Below, piece by piece: positions 24,969-50,187 of a stretch of 64,000 nucleotides of DNA; the first letter of the stretch is position 1, and every line of letters begins with the position of its first letter. Source of the stretch: Natranaeroarchaeum sulfidigenes (GTDB lineage Archaea; Halobacteriota; Halobacteria; Halobacteriales; Natronoarchaeaceae); NCBI RefSeq assembly GCF_017094485.1, contig NZ_CP064786.1:1612001-1676000 (forward strand), given 5' to 3'. The notes below the pieces were generated by a model. The model saw only the letters and a program-made list of their open reading frames with translations, was not told the origin of the DNA and did not search any database. A program made the translations under genes and the position numbers.

Positions 24969-25088
24969 ATCAAAGCAATTGAGGCGTGGAAGAGGCAGTC
25001 CGCCGGACCGAACCACACGTTTCACTAGATCCAGACTATTTGTTCACCAAACCAAAGGTATTAGTTCTATCCATAATATCTACTCTCC

Positions 25089-25991: not shown

Positions 25992-26028
25992 CGGTCGCCG
26001 TTTTTCGAACCTGATCATCCCACTACGG

Positions 26029-27591: not shown

Positions 27592-27725
27592 GATACTTAC
27601 TATATCTTGACCTATTAGATAAAAATATGACGTAAGTAGTAATGAATAGGACTTAATGTTCGAGAACCAAGGGAGAAGTCTCAGTTACCCAAAGGGTTAA
27701 TTTGACAGTATGTATCGGGGGTACT

Positions 27726-28301: not shown

Positions 28302-28346
28302 TAGCCGTAGGGCCGAGTCTTCCAAGAAATTGAACGGTCCTCAGTA

Positions 28347-28958: not shown

Positions 28959-29207
28959 CGTACTCTCACAACAAATCAGATAGCTACGGAGGTAATTAAT
29001 TGTTGGCAAGCCGAAATCACCGCGCCGATCTCGTTTTCAAGATCATTGATCAGCCATCAGTAGAACTGCATCAACATCACTCTCTTGCTATTCTCGGGCG
29101 TCGTACTGGCTGGAATAAAATTGCACCTCTGGTGAACAACTTGAAATCAATCCCTGAGCATTATTAGACCCCTCCCCTCGTCTGACATGACGTTAATCAA
29201 TACTGCC

Positions 29208-30362: not shown

Positions 30363-30466
30363 TCGATAGGAGGTTAACGTATTAGAAGATAAAATTTTCC
30401 TGTTTTAACTACACATAGCCCATCTATGACAAATATTTTATACGAGAAGGAACCATAGAATTCATC

Positions 30467-30634
30467 TCATTGCTTCTTACAGCCCGGTTCATTTTCCCGC
30501 TTGTAGTTGGTGATTGCAACAACGAACCGGAGACAGAGCGCATGGAACACATCTGCTCATGATTGGAGGCGGCCTCGAGCGCGGACCTGCCCGAGGCCGC
30601 AGTGCTTGACTGTGTAGTTGGTTCGTTCGATCTT
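30467..30634 (-). pseudogene. transposase C-terminal remnant with internal stop
   Basis: The minus strand reads KIERTNYTVKHCGLGQVRA, then a TGA in frame near the middle, then ADVFHALCLRFVVAITNYKR, and ends at a stop at 30467. The composition and the C-terminal ITNYKRE-NPG-like end resemble the terminus of haloarchaeal transposases. Nothing of the N-terminal part is seen, so only a scar remains. The rest of the gap between 30363 and 30828 is AT-rich and without a gene. Confidence 0.55.
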
Positions 30635-30828
30635 AGTAAGAGGGAATTGTATTTACTTCATGAGCACACGCTTAAACAATAACTTGCCGTAAATATGTCC
30701 GAAGTTTTTTAAACTAAGGCGAAACCATATTTGATACTGAGTCTCAAAGAATTTGCTCCACGCCAATATAATCAACATATCAATGGATTCCGCCCAACGA
30801 AACCGAGTGTCCATACGGAGGTTCAGAA

Positions 30829-31713
30829 ATGGATATTGATGAAAATATATCTGTCAGCAGATTTGGTGTGACAGGAGGGCTAATGATTGTAGGGTTGGGA
30901 TTTCTTACTTTATATATAGGATTGTTCGTATTTCCTATTTGGTATTCAATTTTTACTTTTATACCTGGTGGTATTTTATTTATAATTATAGGGATAATCT
31001 TCTCGATCGGTGGAGGAATTCTCGGAAAGGTAGTGGACAAAGGTCTGCGCTGTAAGGAGTGTGGTGCAAAAGTCAACGGGAACGGTATGTATTGCGAAGA
31101 GTGTAGTGCAAACCTATCGTCTCAAGAGACAAGTTGTGGGTATCAAGAGGAACAAAATGATGGTATTCGTGGGGGGATAGTAGAGGGGTACCGTAAAATG
31201 TTGCCTCAGCATTTTTTTCTGGCAATGACCTTTTACACATTCCCAGTTTTCGTACTCGCAATAATATACCATATCCTTCCGAGTAGCTACGATACGGGAG
31301 AGTTAGCTATTGCTATTTTATCACAAGTCTTGTTAGCTCCGATCTGGGCTGTGCCGCTGATCATAATCTTATATTGTACTATTACAGGAGTTCGCGCGTC
31401 GTCATCTAAACTTTATTGGATTGGATCATATATGGTGACATTCGCCCTTTTTTTCCAACAGACACATACTATTGAGGGCGGAGGATTTTCTGAATACGGT
31501 AGTATGACGAGAGAATCTCTGGGGTTTTTTCAGGCATTTTTCGAATTAACTGTATTGCTAATAGTCGTCTCTTCCGGATTAGCAATAACAATAACAATGC
31601 TGCAAATAATGATTGGGATATATTCGAACATACGTGTGTTAATAATAGAGATAATACAAGATGTGCTCGGACTGCCTGAGTCTGCAATCGAAGCTATCCT
31701 TGACTTTTTTTGA
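30829..31713 (+). CDS. membrane protein with internal zinc ribbon
   Basis: A protein of 294 residues with two N-terminal transmembrane helices (residues about 15-65), a cytoplasmic zinc ribbon (LRCKECGAKVNGNGMYCEECSANL near residue 73), and then four more hydrophobic helices. The coding sequence is strikingly AT-rich, with many ATA and TTA codons, unlike neighbouring genes, which suggests recent transfer from a low-GC source. It lies beside a transposase remnant. I do not recognise the family. Confidence 0.7.
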   Translation: MDIDENISVSRFGVTGGLMIVGLGFLTLYIGLFVFPIWYSIFTFIPGGILFIIIGIIFSIGGGILGKVVDKGLRCKECGAKVNGNGMYCEECSANLSSQETSCGYQEEQNDGIRGGIVEGYRKMLPQHFFLAMTFYTFPVFVLAIIYHILPSSYDTGELAIAILSQVLLAPIWAVPLIIILYCTITGVRASSSKLYWIGSYMVTFALFFQQTHTIEGGGFSEYGSMTRESLGFFQAFFELTVLLIVVSSGLAITITMLQIMIGIYSNIRVLIIEIIQDVLGLPESAIEAILDFF

Positions 31714-32042
31714 TGTCCATAGCACGTATAAACAATCCTCACACGTGGGCGGTTTGATTATTGTTCCAGTTCGAAATGAGTTTAGAAGTGGGTGCACCAA
31801 GCGTACGGAGTATGAACTAGTCAGAGAGCATCCGTTCAGTGGCGGATATTGATAGTTCGTTGGTATCAGCGGTGGTCCGACGTGGGGTGCACGCTTCTTT
31901 GAGAACGGTGAATACGGTCTTAGGGCTGTTGAATCGAATACGAAGACTACCAGGCGGGCTATCCTATGACATGCTCTACTGAAACTAATAGTTGTAATTT
32001 CAGCAATAGTTATAAAAATGGGAGTAGTATTTGTGGCCAATA
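31714..32042. other. intergenic stretch without a recognised gene
   Basis: No supported gene. A 133-codon minus-strand frame covers much of it and runs into the preceding gene, but its composition (few acidic residues) does not look haloarchaeal. A CAATAGTTATAAAAATGG region near 32003-32020 contains a good TATA box for the vWA gene starting at 32043. Confidence 0.5.
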
Positions 32043-33212
32043 ATGACGGTGAACATTACTGGCGGTACCAGCAACTCACTTCCGACATCTGGGGGAGTAA
32101 CGACGATCGAAGCACGAATTGATCCCCTAGCCAAAACAAAGCCCACGAAGAGACACGTTGTATTACTCATTGACACGAGCGGATCAATGGCCGGTGACAA
32201 AATAGACAACGCAAAAAATGGTGCAGGGAGTGCGCTTGGGAAATTAGATAAGGAAGATTACGTGAGCGTCCTCGGTTTCGATACAGAGGTTCAGACCGTA
32301 CTTCCAATAGACTCTTGGTCAAATATAGATCAAAAAGGTGCAAACAAAGAGTTGACCAATATCGATTCTGGTGGAGGGACTGACATATACAAAGGACTTG
32401 AGAACGCAAGGGATCAACTTATAGAACACGCTCCCAATGACTCAGAGGCTGTCAAGCGAATTATCTTACTTTCAGATGGCCAGGATCGGTTCGACCCCGA
32501 AACCTACCGCGACCTCGCAGAAGAGTACAACGAGTGCGGGATTTCCATAATGGCAGCCGGTATCGGAGGAGGGTACGACGAAGAGGTAATGCTGGCGTTA
32601 GCGAACGGGTCAGGTGGTGTTCCCGCAGACCTGTCACAAGAGGATATCGATGCGTTCCTCGACGAGACAGTCAGCGATACGGATCAGGTTATTGTACCAA
32701 ATCCGGAACTCAAGATCCATCCGGCACACGGATTCATATTAGATGACAAAACAGTCTTTTTTGACGCGCCGAAAATCGAACAACGGGAGATCGACCATGA
32801 TCAATCTCCGCCATCAGTTGGTCTTCCCGAACTACAAGTAGGCGATCCTCATCGATTGACGTTTAAAATACTCGGGCAACCCAAAGCTGGGGGCTTGAGT
32901 TATGAAATTGCAACATTACGAGTAGAAGACGGATCAGGATCAAGAGTAGCTGAAACGACCGTTGACGTTGACTACACAGATCAAGCGGGACTCGAACGTG
33001 TCGACATAGAAGAAAACCGGGCGATTGCGGAGGTGACTGTAGGTATTCAGGATCCGGAGACTTCAGAAACAGAAGTGAGAGAGAAAATCAAAGAAATTGA
33101 GGATCAAGGCTGGATTGATACTGCGGATGAGCTCAAACAGAAGCTAAATACAGCCGAAGAAGCAGGCGGTATCATTCGGGTGGGCAAAAATAGGCTTGAT
33201 ACCGAAGACTAA
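32043..33212 (+). CDS. von Willebrand factor A-domain protein
   Basis: A protein of 389 residues from the ATG at 32043 (MTVNITGGTS), about 27 bp after a TATA-like box. The MIDAS metal site is complete: DTSGSM near residue 45, the threonine in SGGGTDIYKGL, and the aspartate in LLSDGQDRF. A beta-sandwich middle (about 210-310) and a charged helical C-terminus follow, ending in REKIKEIEDQGWIDTADELKQKL. There is no signal peptide, so it acts in the cytoplasm. The GrpE-like gene follows after 50 bp. In bacteria, vWA proteins with Hsp70/GrpE and tubulin-like partners form suspected conflict systems. Confidence 0.88.
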   Translation: MTVNITGGTSNSLPTSGGVTTIEARIDPLAKTKPTKRHVVLLIDTSGSMAGDKIDNAKNGAGSALGKLDKEDYVSVLGFDTEVQTVLPIDSWSNIDQKGANKELTNIDSGGGTDIYKGLENARDQLIEHAPNDSEAVKRIILLSDGQDRFDPETYRDLAEEYNECGISIMAAGIGGGYDEEVMLALANGSGGVPADLSQEDIDAFLDETVSDTDQVIVPNPELKIHPAHGFILDDKTVFFDAPKIEQREIDHDQSPPSVGLPELQVGDPHRLTFKILGQPKAGGLSYEIATLRVEDGSGSRVAETTVDVDYTDQAGLERVDIEENRAIAEVTVGIQDPETSETEVREKIKEIEDQGWIDTADELKQKLNTAEEAGGIIRVGKNRLDTED

Positions 33213-33262
33213 GCGCCAAAAAAAATAAAAACAAAGAACAACATTCACGAATTAGAGAAACA

Positions 33263-34084
33263 ATGATAGACCCTGATCCTTCTGAAGACCAAGATCCAGA
33301 CGAGAACTCCGAGCGTACCGACACGACAGACACAACAGAGCAGAGTAGCGGTACGTCTAACGAAGAACAAGAAGAGAAAATCGACGATGGAGAGACCGGC
33401 AATTCAAAGACAGGTGAAACTGTTCCAATTGATCCGGAACCACAAAATGAGAGTACTGAAACCCAATCAGGCCGACAAGGGACAAAAAATCTAGAAGACA
33501 GCGAAGGGGAATCAGCAGTCAGTTCTGAAGACCGGGCAGAGAATGGTACAGTTAGCACAAACGAATCAGATGCGTCCACGAACTCAGAACCACATTCCTC
33601 ACAAGAACCAGAAAAGGAGAGTAAATCAGTTGCTCGGCTTGAGGAAAGAATTGAGACGTTAGAGGAAACTGTGGAAGAAAGCCAGCAGCGAATTGACGAT
33701 CTTGAGTCTCTACTAAGTGATTATCAGCGACGAAACGAGCACGAACACGAGGAAATCAAGAATTACGCAATCGAAGATTTTGCGAGAGATATGCTGGATA
33801 TCAAGGACAATCTTCAAGACGCCATTGAGCTTGAAGATCTCCAAGAAGGACCAGAGCGTCGACTTCAGATCATCACCAAGCAGTTCGATCAGGTCTTTAC
33901 CTCTGAACAGATCGATAAGATTGAACCCGCTCTCGGTGAGGAATACGATAACGATCTTCACCGGATGATCGACAAGGAGGCAACTGACTCATACGACACC
34001 GAAGAAATCGTGCGAGTGGTCGAAATAGGGTACGCAATCTCCGAACGAGTGATCAGGCCAGCACAGGTAGTTGTTAGTGAGTAG
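33263..34084 (+). CDS. GrpE-like nucleotide exchange factor with long disordered N-terminus
   Basis: A protein of 273 residues, compared with about 180-240 in usual haloarchaeal GrpE. Residues 1-120 are acidic and disordered. A coiled coil (RLEERIETLEETVEESQQRIDDLE) leads to the GrpE core: LLSDYQRRNEHEHEEIKNYA, DFARDMLDIKDNLQDAIE, and the C-terminal beta domain RMIDKEATDSYDTEEIVRVVEIGYAISERVIRPAQVVV. GrpE releases ADP from DnaK. It is in the same orientation as the vWA gene and converges with the Hsp70 gene, their stops 5 bp apart, so it is a dedicated partner in all likelihood. The host housekeeping grpE is expected elsewhere. Confidence 0.88.
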   Translation: MIDPDPSEDQDPDENSERTDTTDTTEQSSGTSNEEQEEKIDDGETGNSKTGETVPIDPEPQNESTETQSGRQGTKNLEDSEGESAVSSEDRAENGTVSTNESDASTNSEPHSSQEPEKESKSVARLEERIETLEETVEESQQRIDDLESLLSDYQRRNEHEHEEIKNYAIEDFARDMLDIKDNLQDAIELEDLQEGPERRLQIITKQFDQVFTSEQIDKIEPALGEEYDNDLHRMIDKEATDSYDTEEIVRVVEIGYAISERVIRPAQVVVSE

Positions 34085-34089
34085 TCCGG

Positions 34090-35724
34090 TTAAATATCGA
34101 AATCACCGTCAACTTCTTCTCCACTTTCCTCGTCGACAGCCTCAACGTGAAGAATTCCGTTCTTATCGTAGTCATAGGTGACCTCAATTCTTGGGACGCC
34201 GGCAGGCCGTGGAGAGATGCCGGTCAATAGGAGTTCTCCGATTTCTTCGTTTTCTCTGGCAATCCCACTCTCTCCTTGATACACACCGACACGGACTCTA
34301 GTCTGATTATCACTCGTCGTCGTGTACATCCCAGTGCCTTCAGCGTTGTCCGTGCTTGTCCCTTGCTCGATGAGCACGTCCATACTCCCATCTTTTAACT
34401 CAGTCCCAAGGGAGTGGCTGATAATATCAGTAATACTGTCTTCAGCACCAGTAATACTCTCTTCTCCACCACCTGTATGTACTTGTGCTTGGTGGGCTTT
34501 CCGAGCGTCCTCGGATTGGAAAGTTTCGTCACAATCTGGCTGTGTGCACTCGAAAGCGTCTTCGGAGTCAGAATGATCTTCGTCGTAGTGCTCGTTAAGG
34601 TGGAGTATTGCATCGAACTCTTTCCCACACACACTGCATCGGTACCCCGTTTTGATTTCGCGCTGTGCATACACTGCTGCACCCTGCGCGACAATCTTAT
34701 CAGGATCAATTGTTAGTGTCGGTTCGGTACCGAGAAACTGTTCAAGACGTTCCTGAACTGCTGGAATCTGTGTGGATCCGCCCACCAGTAGTGCCGTGTC
34801 AAGGTCATTGGTGGAGAGGTCAGCCTTGTTAAGTGCAGTCGATACGGGATCGATAGACCGATCTAGGAGTTCTTCGACAGTATCTTCGAACGTTTCTCTC
34901 GTGACTTTCTCCTCAATCTCGATGATTTCACCGTTGATTTGGCCGAGGAACGGTGCTAACGCTTCAGCTTCTTCGTCAGTTGAGAGATCAATCTTTGTTT
35001 CTTCGGCTTCTGTACGGAGGTTTGCTCTGACTTCCTCGTCGTCAAGAATGTCAATGCCGTGTTCCTCTTCATATCGATCCGCAATCAGCTCCATCAGTGC
35101 CCTATCAAAATCAGCGCCCCCTAGACTGTTGTCCCCATCCGTTGCTAGAACTTTGTACTCGTCATTGGCAACCTCAATAATCGAGATATCCAGTGTTCCA
35201 CCCCCGAAGTCGTACACAAGTATCGTTTCGTCTAGCTCCTTCCCGTTCCCGTATGCGAGTGCTGCTGCAGTTGGTTCGTTCAGAAGGTGGATGTCGTCGA
35301 TGCCAGTAATCTCAGCAGCTTCTTTCGTTGCGGCAGTTTGTTTGATTGTAAAGTATGCTGGAACTGTGACAACTGCTTCATCAACATCATCTCCGAGATA
35401 CTCCTGCGCATCGGATTTGAGTTTGTTGAGGATCTCCGAGGAGACTTCAGGAGGCGTATACTCGGAACCTTTAATTTCTACCGTATGGTCCTCCTCTCCC
35501 ATATGACGTTTAATTTCTCGAACGACTTGCTCCGGTTCGGCAGGTTCACGATCAATTGCCCGTCGGCCGACGAGTGCTTTGCCGTCCTCATTATAGTGAA
35601 CAACAGACGGTGTCAGTCGCTTTCCTTCATTGTTCGCAAGCATTTGTGGGTCGCCGCCCTCAACAATCGCCATCCCACTGTTTGTTGTGCCTAGGTCTAT
35701 TCCTAATATCTTCTCGCTTGCCAT
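34090..35724 (-). CDS. Hsp70 (DnaK-like) with two C2H2 zinc fingers and no C-terminal lid
   Basis: A protein of 544 residues. The nucleotide-binding domain (1 to about 355) is intact: LGIDLGTTNSGMAIV, the second phosphate loop LVYDFGGGTLDISI, and the adenosine loop LLVGGSTQIPAV. Between it and the substrate domain lie two zinc fingers at about 361-384 (CSVCGKEFD...HYDEDH) and 391-416 (CTQPDCDETF...HQAQVH). The usual hydrophobic interdomain linker is not recognisable. The beta substrate domain (about 417-530) is present with TSDNQTRVRVGVYQGE, but the protein ends there, so the helical lid is missing. This is not a housekeeping DnaK. The fingers could bind DNA, RNA or a partner and replace allosteric coupling; this is inference. 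Confidence 0.92.
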   Translation of the reverse strand: MASEKILGIDLGTTNSGMAIVEGGDPQMLANNEGKRLTPSVVHYNEDGKALVGRRAIDREPAEPEQVVREIKRHMGEEDHTVEIKGSEYTPPEVSSEILNKLKSDAQEYLGDDVDEAVVTVPAYFTIKQTAATKEAAEITGIDDIHLLNEPTAAALAYGNGKELDETILVYDFGGGTLDISIIEVANDEYKVLATDGDNSLGGADFDRALMELIADRYEEEHGIDILDDEEVRANLRTEAEETKIDLSTDEEAEALAPFLGQINGEIIEIEEKVTRETFEDTVEELLDRSIDPVSTALNKADLSTNDLDTALLVGGSTQIPAVQERLEQFLGTEPTLTIDPDKIVAQGAAVYAQREIKTGYRCSVCGKEFDAILHLNEHYDEDHSDSEDAFECTQPDCDETFQSEDARKAHQAQVHTGGGEESITGAEDSITDIISHSLGTELKDGSMDVLIEQGTSTDNAEGTGMYTTTSDNQTRVRVGVYQGESGIARENEEIGELLLTGISPRPAGVPRIEVTYDYDKNGILHVEAVDEESGEEVDGDFDI

Positions 35725-37029: not shown

Positions 37030-37200
37030 TTATTCGGCTCTGTTGGAATCTTCAGCAGTGAAAATTCTGTTTCGGCTCTCGTCTACGGGAATGTTGATCT
37101 TTCATTCGCCGCAAATAGAGACCAAATCATAAAGAAAAGATACGTTACGGATTGTCCTGATGAGCGTAAAGTTATTAAAATGACGAGAGTAAGGATGAAC

Positions 37201-38010
37201 ATGAGCGACTTCGAAGTATTCATTTGTGGTGATATCGAGGGTGTATCGGGATTCGTAGACTGGGCACAAGAAGACGAGGAGTCCGAACGGGTCCGCCGAG
37301 CAATGACGGAGGATATTAACGCGGCAATTAGAGGAGTCCTCTCCGAGCGGAAAGCTGAAATCGTTGTGAACGATTCCCATGGTGGGAAGCGTAATATAAT
37401 ACTTGAAGAACTACATCCCAAGGCGACACTGGTTCGTGGCGGACCCCGACCACATGGGATGATTTCGGGGGCCGAAGGTAGTGCCGATATTGGGTTTCAA
37501 ATCGGTGCCCATACACGCCCAGGTTACGGAGGTGTATTAGAACATGTGTTCAGCTCGTCGACGATGTCGGAAGTGACCCTAAATGGGCAGCCGGTTGGCG
37601 AGGTGGAACTGAATGCGATGGGAATGGAATACTTCGATGTCCCGACGGGTCTTGTAACCGGCGACGATCGTCTTGAGGATGAACTTACTGAGCTACTTCC
37701 CCGGACCAAGTACGTAGTCACAAAAGAATGTCGTGGAATGCGATCTGCGGCGTGTCGTCACCCAGAAGCGGTGCGGGAGGATATAGAGGCACAAGCGGCC
37801 GCTACAGTAGCAGAGATCGAAAATGGCTACCCGCTGAATCTCGGAGTCGATGAAGACGTTCGAGCGACAATCAGATACCATCAAGCCGATACAGCCGATA
37901 AGGCAGCTCTATGGCCGGAGGTCGAACGGATAGACAGCCGAACGATTGGATACCAATCGACCGATAATCTTGAAATCTACTCGTTTCTCAGAGCCGCAAG
38001 TAAGGTCTGA
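37201..38010 (+). CDS. M55-family metallo-aminopeptidase (DppA-like)
   Basis: A protein of 269 residues from the ATG at 37201 (MSDFEVFICGDIEGVSGF). The M55 zinc ligands are visible: D-x-E in GDIEGVSG near residue 10, HGG in VNDSHGGKRN near residue 60, and H in FQIGAHTRPGYGGVLEHVFSS near residue 105. The E-x-N pair in VELNAMGMEYFDVP fits the catalytic region. DppA cuts D-amino-acid-containing dipeptides and forms a decamer. The physiological role in haloarchaea is unknown. A regulatory link with the cyclase genes downstream is only a matter of position. Confidence 0.85.
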   Translation: MSDFEVFICGDIEGVSGFVDWAQEDEESERVRRAMTEDINAAIRGVLSERKAEIVVNDSHGGKRNIILEELHPKATLVRGGPRPHGMISGAEGSADIGFQIGAHTRPGYGGVLEHVFSSSTMSEVTLNGQPVGEVELNAMGMEYFDVPTGLVTGDDRLEDELTELLPRTKYVVTKECRGMRSAACRHPEAVREDIEAQAAATVAEIENGYPLNLGVDEDVRATIRYHQADTADKAALWPEVERIDSRTIGYQSTDNLEIYSFLRAASKV

Positions 38011-38168
38011 CTCCAATCAGAACGGCGGGCGCACGTTTTATTACTTCTGGAAAATCGAGCATCACGAATATCGTCTCGATAAGGAGTCTACCAATCATCA
38101 CCACCGTCATTCAGTTGTACAGACGGCGTATAGTTTATGTATTATGCGGACACTTCTCCTATAGGTTA

Positions 38169-39704
38169 ATGGAAACGCGACAGTCAGAACAGATTCGGGA
38201 CGGCTGGGGTAGTGTCCTATTTGTTGATTTGCGCAATTTCACTAATCTACTGGAGTTTTACGGCACAAAAAAACTCGAGTCAGTCCTCGACCAGGTGTTT
38301 GTCAGTTTCAAACGTGTCGTTGAATCGTACGGGGGGACGGTAGACAAGCTGATCGGTGACGGTATGATGGCGGTGTTCCGCGACGACAGGGAACGAGACT
38401 GCGAAGCGAACGCAGTCCGGGCGGCCGGTGAAATGCTTCACCAACGTCTCCCAAACTTGGAACATAGAACTAATCTCAACCTTGAGATTGGTATCGGTAT
38501 CTCAAGCGGTGAGCTCAAACGAACAACCATTGCAGACATAGACGAGACGATTATCAGTCGTAACGTGAATATTGCAAGTCGGCTACAGAGCCTCTGTAAG
38601 AAGTTTGATATAGCTATCATCACCGACAAAGAAACACGGGAAAATATTGATGGCTTAGCACAGGGCTATACTTTCCGGTTGATTCCTGATCAACGTATCG
38701 AGGGGATTTACGAACGGATTGACGTTTTCGAAATCTGTTCGCTTGAAGAGTACGACGGCGACTATTTAACGCGCTACAATGAGGCCGCTCAACACTACAG
38801 CGCCGGAGAGTTTTCTAAGGCGCTTGAATTCTTCGTTTCGGCGTACTCCGATATGAGCCAGAAACAGGACCGGACGCTTCTCCATCACTTCGCCAGCGAG
38901 TGTTTCGACCGGCTAGATAATAGTGACAGTCTTTTTCAGAATGCAGACAATTACGAAAATAACTCGACAACACAGCGGACACAGGCGGATTACCTCCTTT
39001 GGCGACTGGAGCAGTTCATCGACAAACGTGATTTAGTTCCTTCTCGGATGCTAGATATCGGCTGTGGATCAGGGACGCTGACGGTCGGTATCGCCGAGCA
39101 GTACTCGACTACCGAGTTAGTAGGTATTGATGAATCACAGGCTCAGATCCAAAAGGCCAGACAGGATCATTCCCACTCTAGAGTCCAGTATGAGACGGCA
39201 GATATCGTCGAGTACGGTCCAGTAGACCCGTTCGACGTGATTGTAAGTAACTCGACGATGCATTGGGTGCAGCCACAGGACAAAGCCTACAAGAACATTT
39301 TTCAGCACCTGAAGCCCGGAGGACTCATCGCTATTCATCAAGGAGGAAAGGGATGTTACAGTGAACTCCACGACGCAGCGGAGCAGGCGTACAAAGAGCT
39401 CGGGTTTGAGGAGTACTTCGACGACTTCCAGTTCCCACTCATCTACTACGACAAAGACGAAATGGAACATCTTCTCAGAGAACATGGGTTTGAGCCACTG
39501 AAAATCAATCAGATGGAATCCGAACAACCGGATACTTTGGTCGACGACTTTGCGGAGGCATCGCTCCTTTCGTATCGCAAACAATTAGCCAACGACGCCG
39601 AGAAGCAGGCGTTCGTAGAACGATACAAATCAATAGCGGAAAAGTACGACAAAATCGATACTACGCGAATTTACGCGTTTGCAGTCCGACCAAGTAACCA
39701 ATGA
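38169..39704 (+). CDS. class III nucleotide cyclase fused to SAM methyltransferase
   Basis: A protein of 511 residues from the ATG at 38169; an ATG at 38115 is in frame but its extension is basic. Residues 1-170 form a class III cyclase domain: first metal Asp in LFVDLRNFT (D20), second in LIGDGMMAVF (D64), and the transition-state Asn/Arg pair in RNVNIASRLQ (N134, R138). A TPR-like helical stretch follows (about 195-250). A class I methyltransferase then has motif I in LDIGCGSGTLTVGI (near 296) and motif IV-like SNSTMHWVQP. The 42282-44522 protein has the same order of domains, with an added N-terminal pair. Which nucleotide is cyclised is not decidable by eye. The stop overlaps the GNAT gene start by 4 bp. 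Confidence 0.9.
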   Translation: METRQSEQIRDGWGSVLFVDLRNFTNLLEFYGTKKLESVLDQVFVSFKRVVESYGGTVDKLIGDGMMAVFRDDRERDCEANAVRAAGEMLHQRLPNLEHRTNLNLEIGIGISSGELKRTTIADIDETIISRNVNIASRLQSLCKKFDIAIITDKETRENIDGLAQGYTFRLIPDQRIEGIYERIDVFEICSLEEYDGDYLTRYNEAAQHYSAGEFSKALEFFVSAYSDMSQKQDRTLLHHFASECFDRLDNSDSLFQNADNYENNSTTQRTQADYLLWRLEQFIDKRDLVPSRMLDIGCGSGTLTVGIAEQYSTTELVGIDESQAQIQKARQDHSHSRVQYETADIVEYGPVDPFDVIVSNSTMHWVQPQDKAYKNIFQHLKPGGLIAIHQGGKGCYSELHDAAEQAYKELGFEEYFDDFQFPLIYYDKDEMEHLLREHGFEPLKINQMESEQPDTLVDDFAEASLLSYRKQLANDAEKQAFVERYKSIAEKYDKIDTTRIYAFAVRPSNQ

Positions 39705-40249
39705 CAACCATCGATTATATTTCCGAAACAGAACGGTTCAGCGATGGTATCCGAGAATTGTTAGTCGCTGCAGACGACGAGTTCGTCCCGCGCCTCTCAG
39801 CACGGGAAGGGACGACTCAGCGGGAAGGGCTAGCTGATGCTTCGAGTGCTGATACTGAAGATGTTGGCGATGCAATCGAATCTTATCACTCGCAGTGTTT
39901 GGACCAACATCTTATCGCCTGTCATGACAGAGGAGATATTCGTGGGTTCATGTCTTTCCGGGAGGGCTACCGAACCTCAGAGCTCGAAGGCTACCAGCCA
40001 TCGAACTACATCTCAACTGTCATTGTGTCACCGGACTATCGCCGTCGTGGATTCGCCCGGAAAATGTACAAGCGGATTCTCTCGGACCTTCCACCAGGAA
40101 TTGAGTGTCCGTATGTGACGACTCGGACTTGGAGTACGAATCACTCGCATCTATCGCTATTAGAAGAACTCGGATTTGAGAACGTCACGAACCTACCAGA
40201 CGACCGGGGAGACGGTATCGACACAGTGTACTATGCAATAGAGCGGTAG
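39701..40249 (+). CDS. GNAT-family N-acetyltransferase
   Basis: A protein of 182 residues. The acetyl-CoA binding loop is visible: ISTVIVSPDYRRRGFARKMYKRIL near residue 110 (the R/Q-x-x-G-x-A motif A), followed by the motif B region VTTRTWSTNHSHLSLLEELGFENV. The GNAT fold transfers acetyl to amines. It overlaps the end of the cyclase-methyltransferase gene by 4 bp, so the two are translated together. The substrate is unknown, and acetylating the neighbour or acting as an auxiliary enzyme are possible. Confidence 0.88.
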   Translation: MTTIDYISETERFSDGIRELLVAADDEFVPRLSAREGTTQREGLADASSADTEDVGDAIESYHSQCLDQHLIACHDRGDIRGFMSFREGYRTSELEGYQPSNYISTVIVSPDYRRRGFARKMYKRILSDLPPGIECPYVTTRTWSTNHSHLSLLEELGFENVTNLPDDRGDGIDTVYYAIER

Positions 40250-40434: not shown

Positions 40435-41496
40435 ATGGAACGTGCTGTCAATGCCGCCCGGGGCACGCTCCTCGGCCTGGCCTGCGGTGATGCGCTCGGA
40501 CGTCCGGTCGAGTTCTCTACGTCAGCAGGGATTGAACGCGAACACGGTACGCTTACCAAGATGGCCGGGGACGGGACCCACGGACAGCCAGCCGGTACGA
40601 TCACTGACGATACAGAATTAGCGCTTCGGATCGGCCGTTCGCTGGCGGACCGTTCTGAGTTCGATGGCGGCGATATTGCACGACGATTCGTGGAGTGGTA
40701 TCGAAGTGGCCCCTTCGATATCGGCCTTATGACTGCCGATGCACTCCGAGCGATCGACGATGGGATGTCGTGGCGTGAGGCCGGCCAAGTGGTGTGGGAG
40801 TCACGTTCTGAGGGGAGCAACGCTGGCAACGGGAGCCTCATGCGGTGTGCCCCATACGCGATTCGGTACGCCCGCTCGCCGATCGAACTCGATGCTGTGA
40901 GCCACAGCTCATCAGCGATCACGCACGCCGATCCGCGGTGCACCCATGCTTGTAGTGTCTTGAACCGGATTCTTGCGACACTCATGTTGGTCGACGAGGA
41001 GACTGCCCGGAAGTTACCCTTCGATCCGCTCATTGGCGTCGTCGAGAACCCGCTGTTCGGCCTGCCGGACGATATCGAAGCTGCACTCAGGCCTGGCCTC
41101 GATGGCCTCTCTCCGGACGATCTGGACAACTCCGGATACGTCGTCAGTACGCTTCAAGCCGGGCTGTACTACGGTCTCACAGCCAACTCGGCCGAGGAAG
41201 CGATCGTGACGGCAGTCAACGCCGGTGGAGACACCGACACGATCGGTGCGGTGGCCGGCGCTGTCGCCGGCGCTCGGTTCGGTATGAGTACTCTTCCGGA
41301 GCGATGGCTCACGGAACTTGACAAGGTCAACGAACTTGACAGGGTCGCACAGAACCTGTACGGCCAACGGGAGGCGTCGACGACGTGGAATGACGATACA
41401 GACGACCCCAGCACGGAACCAATTGGAGCCATCGACCTATTTGTCACGACGACACGAACCGCCGACTCCGGACCATATCGAACTTCCGCCGTTTAG
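40435..41496 (+). CDS. ADP-ribosylglycohydrolase (DraG-like), copy 1
   Basis: A protein of 353 residues. The family signatures are strong: RGTLLGLACGDALGRPVEF near residue 8, the metal ligands in AGTITDDTELALRIG near residue 55, and GGDTDTIGAVAGAVAGARFG near residue 262. These enzymes remove ADP-ribose from proteins or nucleic acids with Mg or Mn. The paralogue at 46431-47339 is 302 residues long. This copy has about 45 extra C-terminal residues overlapping the following frame by about 100 bp, which hints at a mutated stop or a frameshift near 41370-41400. It lies between the GNAT and the TFIIB-cyclase genes. Confidence 0.9.
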   Translation: MERAVNAARGTLLGLACGDALGRPVEFSTSAGIEREHGTLTKMAGDGTHGQPAGTITDDTELALRIGRSLADRSEFDGGDIARRFVEWYRSGPFDIGLMTADALRAIDDGMSWREAGQVVWESRSEGSNAGNGSLMRCAPYAIRYARSPIELDAVSHSSSAITHADPRCTHACSVLNRILATLMLVDEETARKLPFDPLIGVVENPLFGLPDDIEAALRPGLDGLSPDDLDNSGYVVSTLQAGLYYGLTANSAEEAIVTAVNAGGDTDTIGAVAGAVAGARFGMSTLPERWLTELDKVNELDRVAQNLYGQREASTTWNDDTDDPSTEPIGAIDLFVTTTRTADSGPYRTSAV

Positions 41497-42181
41497 CGGC
41501 GGCCATCGCCCTCGACCAGAGCCGAGATATCTACCAGATGAACCGCCAGCTGATCTCTCGCCGATTGACACGGTCTGGTTCGACTGGATGGCACGGATGT
41601 ACCTGTCGTTGAATTACGGGTATCCAGTCCATGAGGGGCCAGCAGCCGACGGTGACCGTGTCCGAGAGGTAAAACACCAGCTTGAGGAGTCCCTCCGAGT
41701 CAGGCTGCCCGAATACACAGTATCAGCAACGTTTGAGGCGCTTCCCGAACAGGATCGGAACCGCCTCGAACAGTTGTTCAACATGGGGACTGAAGCGTTA
41801 CAGGCGGCCGCCGACTCTATCCTGGATGTACGGTCGGAAGGCGGACAAGCGTTTACGCATCTTCATGGCTATCTCGCGGCATCCTCACGAAATGCGCCGT
41901 TCTTGAGTGAGCAGCTTCTCCGCGACACATCAGTCACTGAACCGAACGCAGATGAACTCCTTCGGGCAAGCCAGAAGTTCGCCCAACTCACGTCAACATA
42001 TCTCGAAGTGTTTGCTATGCTGGATGCAACCCACGCTGAGGTCGAGCAGCTCGTCGACACAACGAGTTCAGCACACGAGGCTGCCCAGCGTGCACGCCAC
42101 TATTTCATTGCATTTGCGCTCAGACATCCAGCAATCGACGAGGTCATGATCCAGGATGGACTCGCTCGTCGAAATACGTGA
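41390..42181 (+). CDS. hypothetical helical protein overlapping the ADP-ribosylglycohydrolase gene
   Basis: A protein of 263 residues if it begins at the ATG at 41390 (MTIQTTPARNQ); the true start is uncertain because this overlaps the previous stop by more than 100 bp. The first 50 residues are proline-rich and low in complexity. The rest is helical (VWFDWMARMYLSLNYGYPVH, RNRLEQLFNMGTEALQAAADSIL, LLRASQKFAQLTSTYLEVFAMLDATHAEVEQL), perhaps a helical bundle. No known motif was recognised. It precedes the TFIIB-cyclase gene by 100 bp on the same strand. Confidence 0.65.
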   Translation: MTIQTTPARNQLEPSTYLSRRHEPPTPDHIELPPFSGGHRPRPEPRYLPDEPPADLSPIDTVWFDWMARMYLSLNYGYPVHEGPAADGDRVREVKHQLEESLRVRLPEYTVSATFEALPEQDRNRLEQLFNMGTEALQAAADSILDVRSEGGQAFTHLHGYLAASSRNAPFLSEQLLRDTSVTEPNADELLRASQKFAQLTSTYLEVFAMLDATHAEVEQLVDTTSSAHEAAQRARHYFIAFALRHPAIDEVMIQDGLARRNT

Positions 42182-42281: not shown

Positions 42282-44522
42282 ATGGTCAGCAAAAAAGACG
42301 TATCGAATCTTATTGACCCCCTCACAAGTGCTGGAACAGCGCTTGATCTGTCCCAGGACACCAAGAACCGGGCGATGGAAATTCTGCGGACGGCTGCAGA
42401 GAAACTCTCTGTTCACTCACATGGCGTGGACAACGTCGGGGCAGCGGTGTTGCTTGTTGCGTGTCGGCAGGAGGAAGTGGCGGTGACGATGACGGAGGTT
42501 GTCGATGCCTGGTCGCCGATCGATCCGGATCCGGATGTCGGTGAACCGTTCAGTCACTCATCCGTCGGGCGAGCTTTCAACCATATTTCACGCGCGCTGG
42601 CCATCAAGACTCGCCCAACGGCTCCGGAAGGGCTCGTCACACGGGCCACGACAGATCTTGGCCTGGAAGACGAGACTGCGACGGTTGCTGAGAATATCCT
42701 TGGTGCAGTTCGGGTAGTGGAACCGTCGACCGTCGGGGCAGTCACTGCGAAGGGTGCGGCCTCGACTGCGCTATACCTTGCCTGTCGGATCAGCGATCAA
42801 GACGACTGCACCCAATCACAGGTTGCAGCGGCCCTGGACACGAATTCAGTGACGCTCAGAACGAACCGGGACGCGTTCAAACAGGTCCTCTCCGATCATC
42901 CGGAGCTGGATATCATCGAGGAAACCAACTACAAGACGCTCGACACCGCACTATTTCTCGACCTGGAGGAGATACGCGGCGACCCATCATCGCTCCCGTC
43001 AGATTTGGCTGAGACACCTGAGGCTGACGCCGAAGAAGAGTATCTCACCAATGCTGCGGTTCTGTTCGGCGACATTCGCAATTTCACGAGTATTGTTCAG
43101 TTGTACGACGGTGCGTACGCGACGATCAACGAACTGTTCCAAGAAATTGAGCGCACGGTCGCAGAGGAGTTCCAGGGAGAAGTAGATAAACTGCTTGGGG
43201 ACGGCATCATGGCTGTCTGGACCGACGAGAACGCTTCACAGAATGCGGTAGCGTGTGCTGTCGATATCCTTGAGACTGTCCTGCCGAATATACGGTCAAA
43301 AGCTCCGTTCGAGCTGGAGATGGGGTTCGGAATCGCTACAGGTCGAATCCGCCGGGTTGACGTCGGCGACGTGGATCGGACGGTGTTCGGTGAGAACGTC
43401 AACCTTGCCGCACGACTTGAAGGGTTGTGTAAAGACTTCGACGCGCAAGTAATCGTGGACGAGGACACATACGAGACCGTCCGTGACAAGACTGCGATGT
43501 ACCACGTCCCCAGCCGCTCCCTGCGTGGGTTGAACGCACCGCAGGATGTCTACGTCCGTCCGGATTCGTCAGTGATCGATACTGACGACGTACACGATTT
43601 TAACCAGGCGGCGGCCGACCTGGACGAGGGGTTTTACGCGGAGGCGCTCGAATTTTTCGCAGAAGCGTACGGGAATCACCAACACCCCTACAATCAGACG
43701 CTAGTGCAACTGCTTGCAGTCGAGTGTTTTGATAAGTTTGAGCGAGACGACCGGGCCTCGTGGTCGAAACGTACACTATATGAGTATACCGACACCCAGT
43801 ACCGCCGGTCGCGGCCGTTGAAACGGAAAGCTGTATCGTGTCTTGAATCGCCCAACATGGAAGCGATACGTGTCCTCGAAATCGGTTGTGGAACCGGGGA
43901 TTTGACGACCGAACTGGCCGAGGAGTGGCCAGCAGTGGAGTTCGTCGGTATCGACACTGCACCTGATGCGCTCAAATCAGCGAAAGACGGGGCACTATCG
44001 AACGCTACGTTCAAGCGGACATCTGTCGAGCGTCTCCGACCGGACAAGCCGTTCGACCTTATTTTCTTGAATTCACCGCTGTACTCCCAGTCATCGTATT
44101 TAGAGACACTGACTGACGCTCGCACCGTAATCGCAGACAACGGGGCACTGCTAATTCAGCAAGCACCGCCGTCGTTCACCGCAAAGCTTCGAGAGAGCAC
44201 CAGAGAGGCTGCGACGATGATGAAGTACGAAGGAACCTTTGAGCGTTTTGATTACCCGATCGACTTCTTCGAGCAGTCAGAACTCGAATCTGCACTCAGT
44301 AACCGACGGTGGAACCCGTCGATTGACCGCGTCGATATCGAAGTGGATGTGTACGATCTCGTTCGTGATTTCACGAACGTTGGCCTCACGCCGTACACTG
44401 AATGCTTCTCGAACGCTGTAGAGAAACAGAAGTTCAAAGCAGAGTTCCAGACCGCAGCAAAACGCGTCGCGGAAGATATCCCCTCCTCGGTGTTTCTTGT
44501 TCAAGCAAGCCCTGATACGTGA
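42282..44522 (+). CDS. TFIIB cyclin-repeat domain fused to class III nucleotide cyclase and SAM methyltransferase
   Basis: A protein of 746 residues. Residues about 20-205 look like the paired cyclin folds of TFB/TFIIB core: AAVLLVACRQEEVAVTMTEV in the first repeat, and AKGAASTALYLACR plus QVAAALDTNSVTLRTNRDAF, the HTH that would bind BRE, in the second. No N-terminal zinc ribbon or B-finger is present. Residues about 255-400 are a class III cyclase: LFGDIRNFT (D264), LLGDGIMAVW (D307), ENVNLAARLE (N374, R378). A TPR-like segment (about 440-490) and a methyltransferase (VLEIGCGTGD near 533) follow. A TATA-like TATTTA sits about 30 bp before the ATG. The combination suggests that a transcription factor-like module is coupled to second-messenger synthesis; this is inference. 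Confidence 0.93.
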   Translation: MVSKKDVSNLIDPLTSAGTALDLSQDTKNRAMEILRTAAEKLSVHSHGVDNVGAAVLLVACRQEEVAVTMTEVVDAWSPIDPDPDVGEPFSHSSVGRAFNHISRALAIKTRPTAPEGLVTRATTDLGLEDETATVAENILGAVRVVEPSTVGAVTAKGAASTALYLACRISDQDDCTQSQVAAALDTNSVTLRTNRDAFKQVLSDHPELDIIEETNYKTLDTALFLDLEEIRGDPSSLPSDLAETPEADAEEEYLTNAAVLFGDIRNFTSIVQLYDGAYATINELFQEIERTVAEEFQGEVDKLLGDGIMAVWTDENASQNAVACAVDILETVLPNIRSKAPFELEMGFGIATGRIRRVDVGDVDRTVFGENVNLAARLEGLCKDFDAQVIVDEDTYETVRDKTAMYHVPSRSLRGLNAPQDVYVRPDSSVIDTDDVHDFNQAAADLDEGFYAEALEFFAEAYGNHQHPYNQTLVQLLAVECFDKFERDDRASWSKRTLYEYTDTQYRRSRPLKRKAVSCLESPNMEAIRVLEIGCGTGDLTTELAEEWPAVEFVGIDTAPDALKSAKDGALSNATFKRTSVERLRPDKPFDLIFLNSPLYSQSSYLETLTDARTVIADNGALLIQQAPPSFTAKLRESTREAATMMKYEGTFERFDYPIDFFEQSELESALSNRRWNPSIDRVDIEVDVYDLVRDFTNVGLTPYTECFSNAVEKQKFKAEFQTAAKRVAEDIPSSVFLVQASPDT

Positions 44523-44539: not shown

Positions 44540-45307
44540 CTACAGGCGGCGATACCAAGTATTCTCTCTACCGCCTCCATCGACGAATCGAACACGGAGA
44601 TCCTCTTTACGATCTACTATGGCGTACGCACCGAACGCCTCATTGGGGGTTAATTGCTTGTTGAATGCGTCGACGGTGAAATGGCTAATGCCCCCGGAGC
44701 AAACATACCCGAATTCGTGGAGGTGGCCGTTGAACGTCGCTGCGACTGCATCAGTCATTGCCAAAGCGTTGCGAACCGCCGCTCCGTCAGCACAGAACGC
44801 CTCCTCCGGGCGGTCGGCAAACCACCGGTTATTGCTGACATCACACTCGTGGACTGGGTGATGTACGAAGACGAGAGCATCCGAGAGATCCTCTAGTGCG
44901 TCCCGGAGTGCCCGTAACTGTCTTTCACCGATCTCGCCACGACCACCGTCGAGGTGCGGGGCCGTCGAGTCAAGATACACTAGCGACGCGTCAGTGTCGA
45001 TCCCCCAGGCTTCGTGACCGAATAATTCGGGCCAGTCGTCCGCGATCGAGAGGTGAACCGCGTCGTGGTTTCCAGGCAGGTACCGCACTGGGCAGGAAAT
45101 CTCATCTAGAATCGAACGGATAGTCACTGCATTCTCACGGTCTGTCGCAGCCGCGTCTACTTCGTGGACAATGTCGCCGAGCACCACGACTCGGTCGGGC
45201 TGGATCCGTTCTTCGAATCTGAAAACTGCTTTCTGGAGTTCAGCTGTGAGCTGCTCGGGTGCAGATTTGTTGTAATGAAGGTCGGTCAGGATGGCGACCC
45301 GCGTCAT
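44540..45307 (-). CDS. CpdA-like calcineurin-fold phosphodiesterase
   Basis: A protein of 255 residues from the ATG at 45307 (MTRVAILTDLHYN). All metal-binding blocks are present: DLHYN, VVVLGDIVHEVD, LPGNHDAVH, FVHHPVHE and FNGHLHEFG. Class III phosphodiesterases of this type include CpdA, which hydrolyses cAMP, and other phosphoesterases. The gene converges with the TFIIB-cyclase gene (gap 17 bp) and overlaps by 4 bp the membrane-protein gene at 45304-45951, with which it is co-transcribed. This context supports a role in cyclic nucleotide turnover, but hydrolysis of other phosphoesters is not excluded. Confidence 0.88.
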   Translation of the reverse strand: MTRVAILTDLHYNKSAPEQLTAELQKAVFRFEERIQPDRVVVLGDIVHEVDAAATDRENAVTIRSILDEISCPVRYLPGNHDAVHLSIADDWPELFGHEAWGIDTDASLVYLDSTAPHLDGGRGEIGERQLRALRDALEDLSDALVFVHHPVHECDVSNNRWFADRPEEAFCADGAAVRNALAMTDAVAATFNGHLHEFGYVCSGGISHFTVDAFNKQLTPNEAFGAYAIVDRKEDLRVRFVDGGGRENTWYRRL

Positions 45308-45951
45308 AACAGGATAACGCCGATGAAGGCGACGATGAACTGTATGAGGAACAGTAAGACGGCGAGACGGAGCCAAGCAAGGCCACGACCTGCATACTGT
45401 GCCTTTCGTTTTCCAACTTGTTTGTAATGATAGAGTTTCGCCAAGCGGAACTCGTCGTAGTCCTCAACGCGGTCCGCGCTCCCGTAGTCTGCGACGAAAT
45501 CGGCGACAAATGACTCGTATGTTGACTGGTCCAAATCGTCGTGACCCCCGTCGCGCATCTTCATTACGGAGTCGTACTGCTCGGCCGAAGTTCCGTACCA
45601 AGGGAGCCAGGGGTGGCTGAGAAGTGGCTCTCCAACTCCTTCTGAATAGAACCCGACAGGAAGCAACGAGTTAACGATCGCGTTCAAACTCAGAAAGATC
45701 AGCGCCATCGCAGTGATACCGAGTGCAACGAACAGCCACTGGACGCCACCGGTGACCATGGTTTCTGACTGCAGAACGAGCGTAGAGAGAGAGACTTGCG
45801 CGCTCAACAGGAACGTAATTGCAAGGACGGTTGTGTCGCTGATATTGTCTAGATCGGTGATCGAATCGAACGTGTCTTCAGCCTCGTCATCGGCCATTGC
45901 GACCAGTTCGTCGTGTTCGTTCACAGCGATTATTGTCGGGTTTGAATACAT
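45304..45951 (-). CDS. membrane protein with Pycsar-effector-like (PycTM) layout
   Basis: A protein of 215 residues. A soluble N-terminus of about 40 residues leads to two transmembrane helices (TTVLAITFLLSAQVSLSTLVL; GVQWLFVALGITAMALIFLSL), a cytoplasmic loop of about 75 residues (WYGTSAEQYDSVMKMRDGG, RLAKLYHYKQVGKRKAQYAGRG), and a final transmembrane helix (LRLAVLLFLIQFIVAFIGVIL). PycTM effectors of Pycsar anti-phage systems share this TM, TM, s-x-Y loop, K-rich helix, TM plan. Sequence identity cannot be tested here. It is first in an operon with the CpdA-like phosphodiesterase and lies 0.8 kb from a nucleotide cyclase gene. Confidence 0.6.
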   Translation of the reverse strand: MYSNPTIIAVNEHDELVAMADDEAEDTFDSITDLDNISDTTVLAITFLLSAQVSLSTLVLQSETMVTGGVQWLFVALGITAMALIFLSLNAIVNSLLPVGFYSEGVGEPLLSHPWLPWYGTSAEQYDSVMKMRDGGHDDLDQSTYESFVADFVADYGSADRVEDYDEFRLAKLYHYKQVGKRKAQYAGRGLAWLRLAVLLFLIQFIVAFIGVILL

Positions 45952-46430: not shown

Positions 46431-47339
46431 ATGAACCGTGATCAAGCTCGCGGTACCCTACTTGGTCTGGCATGTGGGGATGCGCTTGGACGGCCAGTCG
46501 AGTTCAGATCTGCCGACCGGATTGCCGCTGAACATGGACGGCTCGACGAGATGGTCGGGCACGGCACATGGAATCAGCCTGCTGGGACGATCACTGACGA
46601 TACCGACCAGGCGCTGTGTATCGCTCGTAGTCTCGTCGAACAGCAGGCGTTCGATCCGGCAGACATAGCGGATCGGTTCGTTGCGTGGTACGATAGCGGG
46701 CCGTTCGACATTGGAGGGATGACGAGGCGATCACTCAGGCGTCTCAAACGCGGCGACGCGTGGGACGAGGCAGGCCAGCAGGTCTGGGCGGACAGTTCCG
46801 AAGGCCAGAACGCAGGGAACGGGAGCGTAATGCGGTGTCCACCGCTTGCTATCCTATACGCGACGGACTGGGATCGACTCGCGGCAGTGAGTCGGCAGTC
46901 CTCGCAAATCACGCACGCTGACCCACGATGTACTGATGGCTGTGCAGTACTGAACCTCACGATTGCTGGCCTCCTCGAAGAGGCGGAGACGCCGTTGCAA
47001 GACGCGCTTGATTATGTCGGTTCAGACGCGCCTGATGAGCTCGTGACGGCACTCCGACCGCTCGCTCGCGGCGACTCACCCGGTACACTGGAAACGTCAG
47101 GGTACGTCGTACATTCGCTGCAGACGGCACTCTACGATGGCCTCGGTGAGGACAGTGCCGAGGAAGCGATTGTGACTGCGGTCAATCGTGGCGGTGACAC
47201 TGATACGATTGGGGCGATTGCCGGCGCAGTCGCTGGCGCACGATTCGGAGCATCAGAGCTTCCGGACCGGTGGCTGAATGCTATCGGCGACACTGACGAA
47301 CTCGAAATGGTGGCCGAGCGACTCCCAGAGGTGGCGTGA
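46431..47339 (+). CDS. ADP-ribosylglycohydrolase (DraG-like), copy 2
   Basis: A protein of 302 residues, paralogous to 40435-41496 over the full catalytic domain. Signatures are RGTLLGLACGDALGRPVEF at the start, AGTITDDTDQALCIARSL near residue 53, and RGGDTDTIGAIAGAVAGARFG near residue 263. It ends about 20 residues after the last motif, the normal place for the family, unlike copy 1. Its stop overlaps the start of the HAD-HEAT gene by 4 bp, so the two are translated as a unit. It reverses ADP-ribosylation; the transferase partner is not seen in the window. Confidence 0.9.
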   Translation: MNRDQARGTLLGLACGDALGRPVEFRSADRIAAEHGRLDEMVGHGTWNQPAGTITDDTDQALCIARSLVEQQAFDPADIADRFVAWYDSGPFDIGGMTRRSLRRLKRGDAWDEAGQQVWADSSEGQNAGNGSVMRCPPLAILYATDWDRLAAVSRQSSQITHADPRCTDGCAVLNLTIAGLLEEAETPLQDALDYVGSDAPDELVTALRPLARGDSPGTLETSGYVVHSLQTALYDGLGEDSAEEAIVTAVNRGGDTDTIGAIAGAVAGARFGASELPDRWLNAIGDTDELEMVAERLPEVA

Positions 47340-49143: not shown

Positions 49144-50187
49144 CTATAGCCACGAGAGGCCAGTGTTGAGTTCTTCGAGGAAGGATGGCCGGATCTGAAC
49201 CGTGGATGGGAACGAGAGTTGTTTGCCATCCCGGTCAAGGATCGTTTCTCGGAGGAACGGATGGGCCGGGTCGAATGAGGGGCTTGCTTGGATGCGGTAG
49301 TCGCTGTCGATGGTGAACAGCGCAGCGTCGAATGCGCGGTGATGCAGCGAGTTCAATACGAGAACGTTCTCCGGATGTTCTGCAAGTTCTGGGTGTTGAC
49401 TTCGTGGGAGGACGTGTGCGAGATCGAGCAGGTCGCCTTCTCGAATGCCGGTTAGGGTACACGCGTGGTCGTAGCGGTCGAATATGTCTGCCCGGAAGGC
49501 GTCACTCACGGTGATTTCGGACGTTTCATAGCGGCGAATCCGGCCGCTTGCATCGAGGGGTTCTCCGGTCGGCCACTGGGCCACCTCCCCGGTCTGGACC
49601 CACTGCTGCCAGACGCCCGGTGCCTCGCTGTCGTCGTTCCGCTGGGCGCGGTCGTGCAGCCACGTGACGGGGACGGCGTTGGTATTGAGGATCGAGAAGT
49701 GGAACTGGTAGTTCGGGACCTGTGTCCCGTCATCGGCCTGGTATGCGTGAACCTCGAAGTGGTCGGGAACGCAGAGCCCGCAGAACTCAACGACACCTGA
49801 TTCGGGTTTACGGAACACGAGGACGGGCGGGACCTCTTCGCGCCAACCTGCTGCAGCGTTGTCGAAGGCGGCTTTGATCTTCTGGTTCTGCGCGGACTCA
49901 TCGTAGGGGTTCGTGGCCTTTGCGTCGCCCCAGTAGCTGATGTACCCGGCGTTGACAGCGAGCGTGTCTTCCCACGGATCGTCGTGCTGTGAGATGCCGC
50001 TATCATTGGAGACGAGTACTAACGCCGCAGGCGTCTCAGACCGGTCTGCACCGAGATCACGGATGCCGCCGGTATTCTTGATGCCGGTGTCGAGCGGGCC
50101 GCGAATCCACCGTAGGAACTGGTCGTTCGAGTTGCGGTAACTGCCAGTGTCGCGGTATTGTTGCCCGACTCGAAACGCGTGTTGCAT
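49144..50187 (-). CDS. two-domain HNH endonuclease, candidate modification-dependent restriction enzyme
   Basis: A protein of 347 residues. Residues 1 to about 190 form an acidic sensor-like domain (NAGYISYWGDAKATNP, VLVFRKPESGVVEFCGLCVPDHFEV, NYQFHFSILNT) that resembles PUA/SRA-type reader domains of type IV restriction enzymes. Residues about 230-310 are an HNH module: FDRYDHACTLTGIREGDLLDLAHVLPRSQHPELAEHPENVLVLNSLHHRAFDAALFTI, with the catalytic H in LAHVLPR and N/H in LNSLHHRAFD. The combination is typical of enzymes cutting modified DNA such as ScoMcrA-like proteins. The reader assignment is weaker than that of the HNH domain. It converges with the HAD-HEAT gene. Confidence 0.75.
   Translation of the reverse strand: MQHAFRVGQQYRDTGSYRNSNDQFLRWIRGPLDTGIKNTGGIRDLGADRSETPAALVLVSNDSGISQHDDPWEDTLAVNAGYISYWGDAKATNPYDESAQNQKIKAAFDNAAAGWREEVPPVLVFRKPESGVVEFCGLCVPDHFEVHAYQADDGTQVPNYQFHFSILNTNAVPVTWLHDRAQRNDDSEAPGVWQQWVQTGEVAQWPTGEPLDASGRIRRYETSEITVSDAFRADIFDRYDHACTLTGIREGDLLDLAHVLPRSQHPELAEHPENVLVLNSLHHRAFDAALFTIDSDYRIQASPSFDPAHPFLRETILDRDGKQLSFPSTVQIRPSFLEELNTGLSWL

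Follow-up and report, generated by a model that had tools for sequence, protein, structure and literature searches.

The window analysed here, a stretch of 64,000 nucleotides of Natranaeroarchaeum sulfidigenes DNA, lies on a contig of 3.04 Mb and contains an open reading frame (42282..44522, + strand, ATG start) for a protein of 746 aa in which a TFB-like core is joined to a class III nucleotidyl cyclase and a methyltransferase. Its segments, all on the + strand, are two TFB-like cyclin repeats (residues 4-106, 42291..42599, and residues 118-205, 42633..42896), a cyclase domain of the IIIb type (residues 256-430, 43047..43571), a helical bridge (residues 434-488, 43581..43745) and a SAM-dependent methyltransferase domain (residues 501-746, 43782..44519). 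Pfam recognised the TFIIB repeat twice (E 5.5e-12; 1.1e-13 for the domain alone), Guanylate_cyc at residues 255-404 (E 2.4e-10) and Methyltransf_31 at residues 528-639 (E 4.5e-17).

The fusion gene faces, in convergent orientation, an operon of two genes on the - strand, which encodes a membrane protein with three transmembrane (TM) helices (45304..45951, likely start ATG 45897) and a metallophosphoesterase (44540..45307), the two genes overlapping by 4 bp (ATGA). On the other side, on the + strand, are genes for an M55 D-aminopeptidase (DppA, 37180..38010), a second cyclase-methyltransferase that has no TFB domain (38115..39704, likely start ATG 38169), a GNAT acetyltransferase (39701..40249, with a 4-bp overlap with the second cyclase gene) and, directly upstream of the fusion gene, a protein of no assigned family (41318..42181, likely start ATG 41390). 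No relative of the last of these was found at the other loci where the cassette occurs, and it is therefore probably not part of the system. A previous, sequence-only reading of this DNA had mentioned neither the neighbouring genes nor the second cyclase-methyltransferase. Two ADP-ribosylglycohydrolases (40435-41496 and 46431-47339), which are 59% identical to each other, flank the fusion gene and its partners.

That reading had recognised two TFB-type cyclin repeats at the N-terminus of the fusion, and all approaches used here agree with it. Among PDB sequences, residues 1-229 matched the TFB of P. woesei (1D3U/1AIS, E 3e-6) and also human TFIIB (1VOL). The AlphaFold2 model of the fusion, for which the underlying alignment was shallow (seven rows; mean pLDDT of the model 62.9), shows 5+5 helices across residues 4-205, at modest pLDDT. 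Foldseek with this model retrieved TFIIB (1VOL, E 8e-8), and in VIA-align 176 of 201 residues (model residues 3-196) were aligned with 1D3U (Z 15.9, rmsd 6.5). The fusion thus shares the two-repeat core with archaeal TFB and eukaryotic TFIIB, but has no zinc ribbon or B-finger, as had been noted before, and no linker (the reading frame begins at the core domain and contains no CxxC pairs), and carries an insertion of 11 residues and attached enzymes. The SAM methyltransferase was also correctly identified in the earlier work, whereas of the segment described there as TPR-like we recovered a short helical bridge, its TPR identity not being confirmed.

Only two TFB fusions were found in the survey of homologues, the window protein and an orthologue of 755 aa in a haloarchaeal genome of another family (G093), which has all the domains in the same order and is 57% identical. 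The presence of the same fusion in this genome rules out an assembly or frame artefact. Identity between the two proteins is 60 and 55% in the TFB repeats, 67% in the cyclase and 49% in the methyltransferase. For the TFB part, the codon-position identity is 67/78/39%, with dN 0.38 and dS 1.43 (a rough Nei-Gojobori estimate). From the even identity of the domains, the codon pattern and dN/dS we conclude that the TFB module is maintained and is not a relic; judging by these comparisons, all domains of the fusion are under purifying selection.

Conservation of the module does not extend to the two loops, universal in TFB, with which the core contacts DNA and TBP. The GR pair of repeat 1 is replaced by SH in the window protein (SHG, residues 46-48) and by AH in the G093 protein, while the S-GKSP loop of repeat 2 has become GAVTA (residues 152-156) and GAVAA, respectively. 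In TFIIB, the G153-R154 loop contacts BREd, and mutation of G153/R154 impairs that contact (PMC4529316). A comparison of TFB/TFIIB cores revealed that the window copy keeps 21 of the 47 near-invariant TFB columns, the other 26 being changed. The recognition helix (VTLR, residues 190-193) retains in both fusions Val190 and Arg193, which we take to be its BRE-contacting residues. Since the GR and GKSP loops are lost in both proteins, promoter engagement is doubtful and classical docking of the fused domain on a TBP-promoter complex appears unlikely; since Val190 and Arg193 are kept, binding of DNA through the helix-turn-helix is still possible.

The sequence-only reading had envisaged a novel signalling enzyme that might sense promoter engagement or DNA. 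Neither of the two outcomes that it named as refuting occurred, for the N-terminal region models as cyclin folds and the cyclase residues persist in the homologues. In the corresponding model, the TFB-like domain would still be a working promoter-bound factor, so that the protein binds TBP-TATA-BRE DNA and makes the messenger at promoters. This model is improbable: the full two-repeat core and the VTLR helix are retained, and the nearest TFB-like relatives preserve more of the loops, but GR and GKSP are gone from both fusions, more than half of the TFB-conserved columns compared have changed, and zinc ribbon and B-finger are missing. The enzyme itself fares better than the sensing of promoters. 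Because the cyclase that carries the TFB-type module is apparently active and the architecture is conserved, the fusion protein is likely to be a new signalling enzyme.

The 11-residue insertion of repeat 1 (at about residues 76-86) is common to both fusions and to two TFB-like proteins of another genus, which are devoid of a zinc ribbon and have an extra C-terminal region. These two proteins (G039 and G244), the nearest TFB-like relatives, are sister to the fusions (local support 0.96) and keep more of the DNA-contact loops than the fusions do. The fused domain therefore seems to belong to a divergent clade of TFB-like proteins and to have lost its promoter loops later. The genes for zinc-ribbon-less TFB-like proteins with the insertion (L140, 853-2103; L141, 1471-2763) have as neighbours two paired genes whose products exceed 1,000 residues. 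A further zinc-ribbon-less TFB-like protein, of 240 aa and with intact loops, is encoded elsewhere in the genome from which the window was taken (G000; L005, 1246-1968). A direct search for viral relatives of the fused TFB domain found none; a single general viral TFB was identified.

The cyclase was previously said to have all its metal and catalytic residues, and its homologues have retained them. All ten cyclase proteins aligned share D264, K303, D307, T367, N374 and R378; these comprise the two metal aspartates (D264 and D307), the transition-state Asn/Arg (N374 and R378), a lysine placed four residues before the metal Asp (K303) and a threonine, with T367/N374/R378 at the canonical +7/+11 spacing. 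A dead cyclase was ruled out, as every catalytic residue is invariant. Lys and Thr form the base-specifying pair of class IIIb adenylyl cyclases. Because the substrate residues of the window enzyme are Lys303 and Thr367, it is predicted to be an adenylyl cyclase of class IIIb, with cAMP as the likeliest product. It shares this Lys/Thr catalytic layout with PaCyaB, OaPAC, CyaC and soluble adenylyl cyclase, and the nearest solved structures are those of PaCyaB, photoactivated OaPAC and soluble adenylyl cyclase. Known class IIIb adenylyl cyclases receive their inputs through GAF, PAS, BLUF, WD40 or NTPase domains; we know of no TFB core among these inputs, nor of any other enzyme that has a TFB core as its sensory input. 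Neither a TFIIB-cyclase fusion nor Pycsar in haloarchaea was the subject of any relevant paper in the literature collection searched.

Pyrimidine specificity in the PycC cyclases of Pycsar is associated with Y50, D94 and R97 in BcPycC and with F100, R142 and Q144 in EaPycC (PMC11224242). The corresponding positions in the window protein, placed by their offset from the metal Asp, are F262/K303/L305/G306; none of these fits the UTP set and only Phe262 fits the CTP set. The PADLOC PycC model matched the window cyclase with E 3e-18, a kind of model that class III cyclases in general may match. Class III cyclase domains that are 29-35% identical to the query were also seen on IMG/VR viral contigs (L105-L117).

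The methyltransferase domain is nearest to the trans-aconitate, juvenile-hormone-acid and SABATH carboxyl methyltransferases, and it is fused to the cyclase in all ten homologues. Its motif I is intact in the window fusion and degenerate in the G093 protein (VGCEEGD), for which reason the latter domain may serve as a sensor of SAM or as a modifier. The constant fusion of the two enzymes, together with the presence of a dedicated phosphodiesterase, would also suit a modified messenger, for example a cyclic nucleotide bearing a methyl group or a conjugate of SAM with a nucleotide; SAM-AMP signalling is described for some type III CRISPR systems (PMC10600005). We consider such a product very improbable, given the degenerate motif I in G093, the carboxylate substrates of the nearest methyltransferases and the fact that no class III cyclase is known to produce conjugates.

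Most of the homologous cyclases have no TFB domain. Eight TFB-less cyclase-methyltransferases were found, one in the window (68% identical to its Natrarchaeobius homologue) and the rest in seven other genomes, the carriers including Actinarchaeum halophilum, Natrarchaeobius chitinivorans, Halobellus rarus and a Halomicroarcula. The TFB domain is therefore best regarded as an accessory, on the input side, of a circuit that already existed and has its effector and phosphodiesterase genes close by. Altogether, the cyclase-methyltransferase occurs in 9 of 391 haloarchaeal genomes, belonging to 6 of 86 genera; the cassette is sporadic and was not seen in any other sampled family member. Transport as phage or plasmid cargo was considered and rejected: no phage record matches, and a plasmid of Halobellus limi is the sole plasmid match covering most of the cyclase-methyltransferase part.

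The genes around the cyclase are also conserved. The convergent arrangement of the fusion gene and the operon for the membrane protein and the metallophosphoesterase is repeated in G093. Natrarchaeobius and Halomicroarcula have the order cyclase-GNAT-phosphodiesterase, with the membrane-protein gene adjoining; in three Halobellus genomes the order is the same and the membrane-protein gene is located about 50 kb away; in Actinarchaeum only the membrane protein is encoded near the cyclase. The GNAT gene belongs to the cassette in most genomes. Membership of DppA, whose gene is placed just upstream of the second cyclase, is uncertain, other genera carrying an S58 DmpA at this position. The membrane protein is present in exactly the same nine genomes as the cyclase, a co-occurrence whose probability by chance is about 1 in 5e17 by genome and 1 in 5e8 by genus, shared ancestry being ignored in both values.

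The metallophosphoesterase subfamily was found in eight of the nine cyclase genomes. Seven of these proteins score at least 371 bits (the next paralogue scores 221 bits), and the eighth, from Halomicroarcula (L022/G332), scores in pieces, its gene being split by an apparent frameshift. The metal motif of class III cyclic-nucleotide phosphodiesterases (DxH / GD / GNH(D/E) / H / GHxH) is invariant in six of six proteins and takes the form DxH, GD, GNHD, HH and GHLH in the window enzyme, which also gave weak matches to SpdA/CpdA models. This putative phosphodiesterase resembles CpdA, Rv0805 and SpdA in its complete metal motif; a sequence search of the PDB, however, found no relative.

From its N-terminus onwards, the membrane protein, our candidate effector, has a pair of TM helices, some 80 cytosolic residues and then a long TM helix at the C-terminal end; archaeal PycTM has this same layout. 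Matches of several family members to PADLOC PycTM models were weak (E 0.0096-0.063), as was that of one member to the Pfam PycTM model (E 0.57). Comparison with archaeal PycTM by hhalign, based on small alignments, gave a probability of 6.7%, and homology with PycTM is for this reason not claimed. Foldseek with a model of the membrane protein yielded no significant match, and no cyclic-nucleotide-binding domain was recognised in it. We regard the protein as PycTM-like in form. Pairs of PycC/PycTM-like genes were observed in haloarchaea (L134, 143-1488; L145, 1333-2619), and in one genome (G086) a plain PycC-like cyclase is followed directly by a small membrane protein of PycTM-like form.

The cassette is similar to Pycsar in that a class III cyclase is linked to a small three-TM membrane protein of the same layout and in that its distribution is sporadic, plain PycC/PycTM pairs being present in other archaea and in haloarchaea. 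It differs in the fusion of the cyclase to a methyltransferase (and, in the window, also to a TFB core), in the adenylyl-type Lys/Thr pair, which replaces the residue sets of BcPycC and EaPycC, and in the extra phosphodiesterase and GNAT genes. As pyrimidine signatures are absent and homology of the effector is unproven, we do not file the cassette as Pycsar. The best reading is that it works in a Pycsar-like manner with an adenylyl-type cyclase, the TFB-derived input being the new feature.

We propose, with about an even chance of being right, that the cassette is a Pycsar-like haloarchaeal cyclic-nucleotide circuit in which, in the window and G093 proteins, an inactivated TFB core serves as the input of the cyclase. 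A TFB core would have been recruited to the N-terminus of the cyclase, where its partner is probably a protein, or else DNA contacted through the remaining helix-turn-helix. A trigger received by this domain would cause the cyclase to make a cyclic mononucleotide, most likely cAMP; the TFB-derived domain would probably gate dimerisation of the cyclase in response to a disturbance of the transcription apparatus by infection or stress. The messenger would then switch the small membrane protein encoded next door, and the dedicated metallophosphoesterase would degrade it and reset the circuit. For the carboxyl-methyltransferase-like domain, the likeliest role is that of a further module for regulation or modification. 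The sporadic distribution and the form of the partners lead us to favour a role in conflict. A more specific version, which we judge unlikely, is that this domain, by mimicking TFB, serves the archaeal basal transcription machinery as a decoy or guard: bound or displaced at take-over of transcription by a virus or by a viral protein that targets TFB/TBP, it would elicit the cyclic nucleotide and hence the membrane effector.

The signal might also act in the opposite sense, a constant messenger holding the membrane protein off until the messenger is lost (to a sponge or nuclease of viral origin, or to the phosphodiesterase of the cassette) and the protein is set free. Panoptes provides a precedent for such inversion (PMC12657218) and has the same parts list of synthase and membrane effector, and a phosphodiesterase is indeed encoded within the cassette. 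However, Panoptes consists of a Cas10-like mCpol and an S-2TM-beta effector and not of a class III cyclase, and there is no direct sign of inversion, which makes this version distinctly unlikely.

Metabolism rather than defence is suggested by the racemase, DmpA and DppA that accompany the cassette in several genomes. In Halomicroarcula and Halobellus, the membrane-protein gene is flanked by those for an Asp/Glu racemase and an S58 DmpA, and the M55 D-aminopeptidase precedes the second cyclase of the window. The system could thus be one of nutritional or stress signalling by cAMP, in which the cyclase, phosphodiesterase and membrane protein regulate the use of D-amino acids or peptides and the TFB domain enables the enzyme to serve as a promoter-specific transcription regulator or to report on one; the Val190/Arg193 pair of its helix and published measurements of haloarchaeal cAMP (PMC1906763, PMC6741144) are consistent with this. 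On the other hand, the peptidase families vary by genome and in G093, Natrarchaeobius and Actinarchaeum are either missing or encoded far away, the rarity and sporadic distribution of the cassette are ill-suited to a housekeeping pathway, and the GR and GKSP loops are lost. We regard this explanation as unlikely.

If the cassette works as proposed above, i.e. as a Pycsar-like circuit, it would offer a messenger, an effector and an off-switch that can be tested in tractable archaea, it would constitute a purine-type, methyltransferase-fused branch beside Pycsar, and it would exemplify a basal transcription factor turned sensor, possibly of viral transcription take-over. Should the decoy or guard version be true, a general transcription factor would, after its retirement, have given rise to an immune sensor of transcription take-over. 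Haloarchaea rarely have class III cyclases, which were found in 3 of 95 sampled genomes (the two fusion genomes and G086).

Several other genes were observed around the cassette. The Asp/Glu racemase and S58 DmpA genes near the membrane-protein gene are located at 8269-9384 and 10209-11249 of L128 in these Halomicroarcula and Halobellus loci, which also include L022 and L024. A cluster at 22389-35724 of the window encodes an 859-aa Tubulin_2-like protein, an Hsp70 whose tail is a C2H2 zinc finger, and a VWA protein. In Halobellus (L127 and L129) the membrane-protein gene likewise adjoins one of the Tubulin_2-like type, and in L128 it has an Hsp70 gene nearby. About 5 kb from the fusion gene (49144-50187), the window also encodes a methyl-directed HNH restriction endonuclease with an AspBHI-type N-terminal domain.
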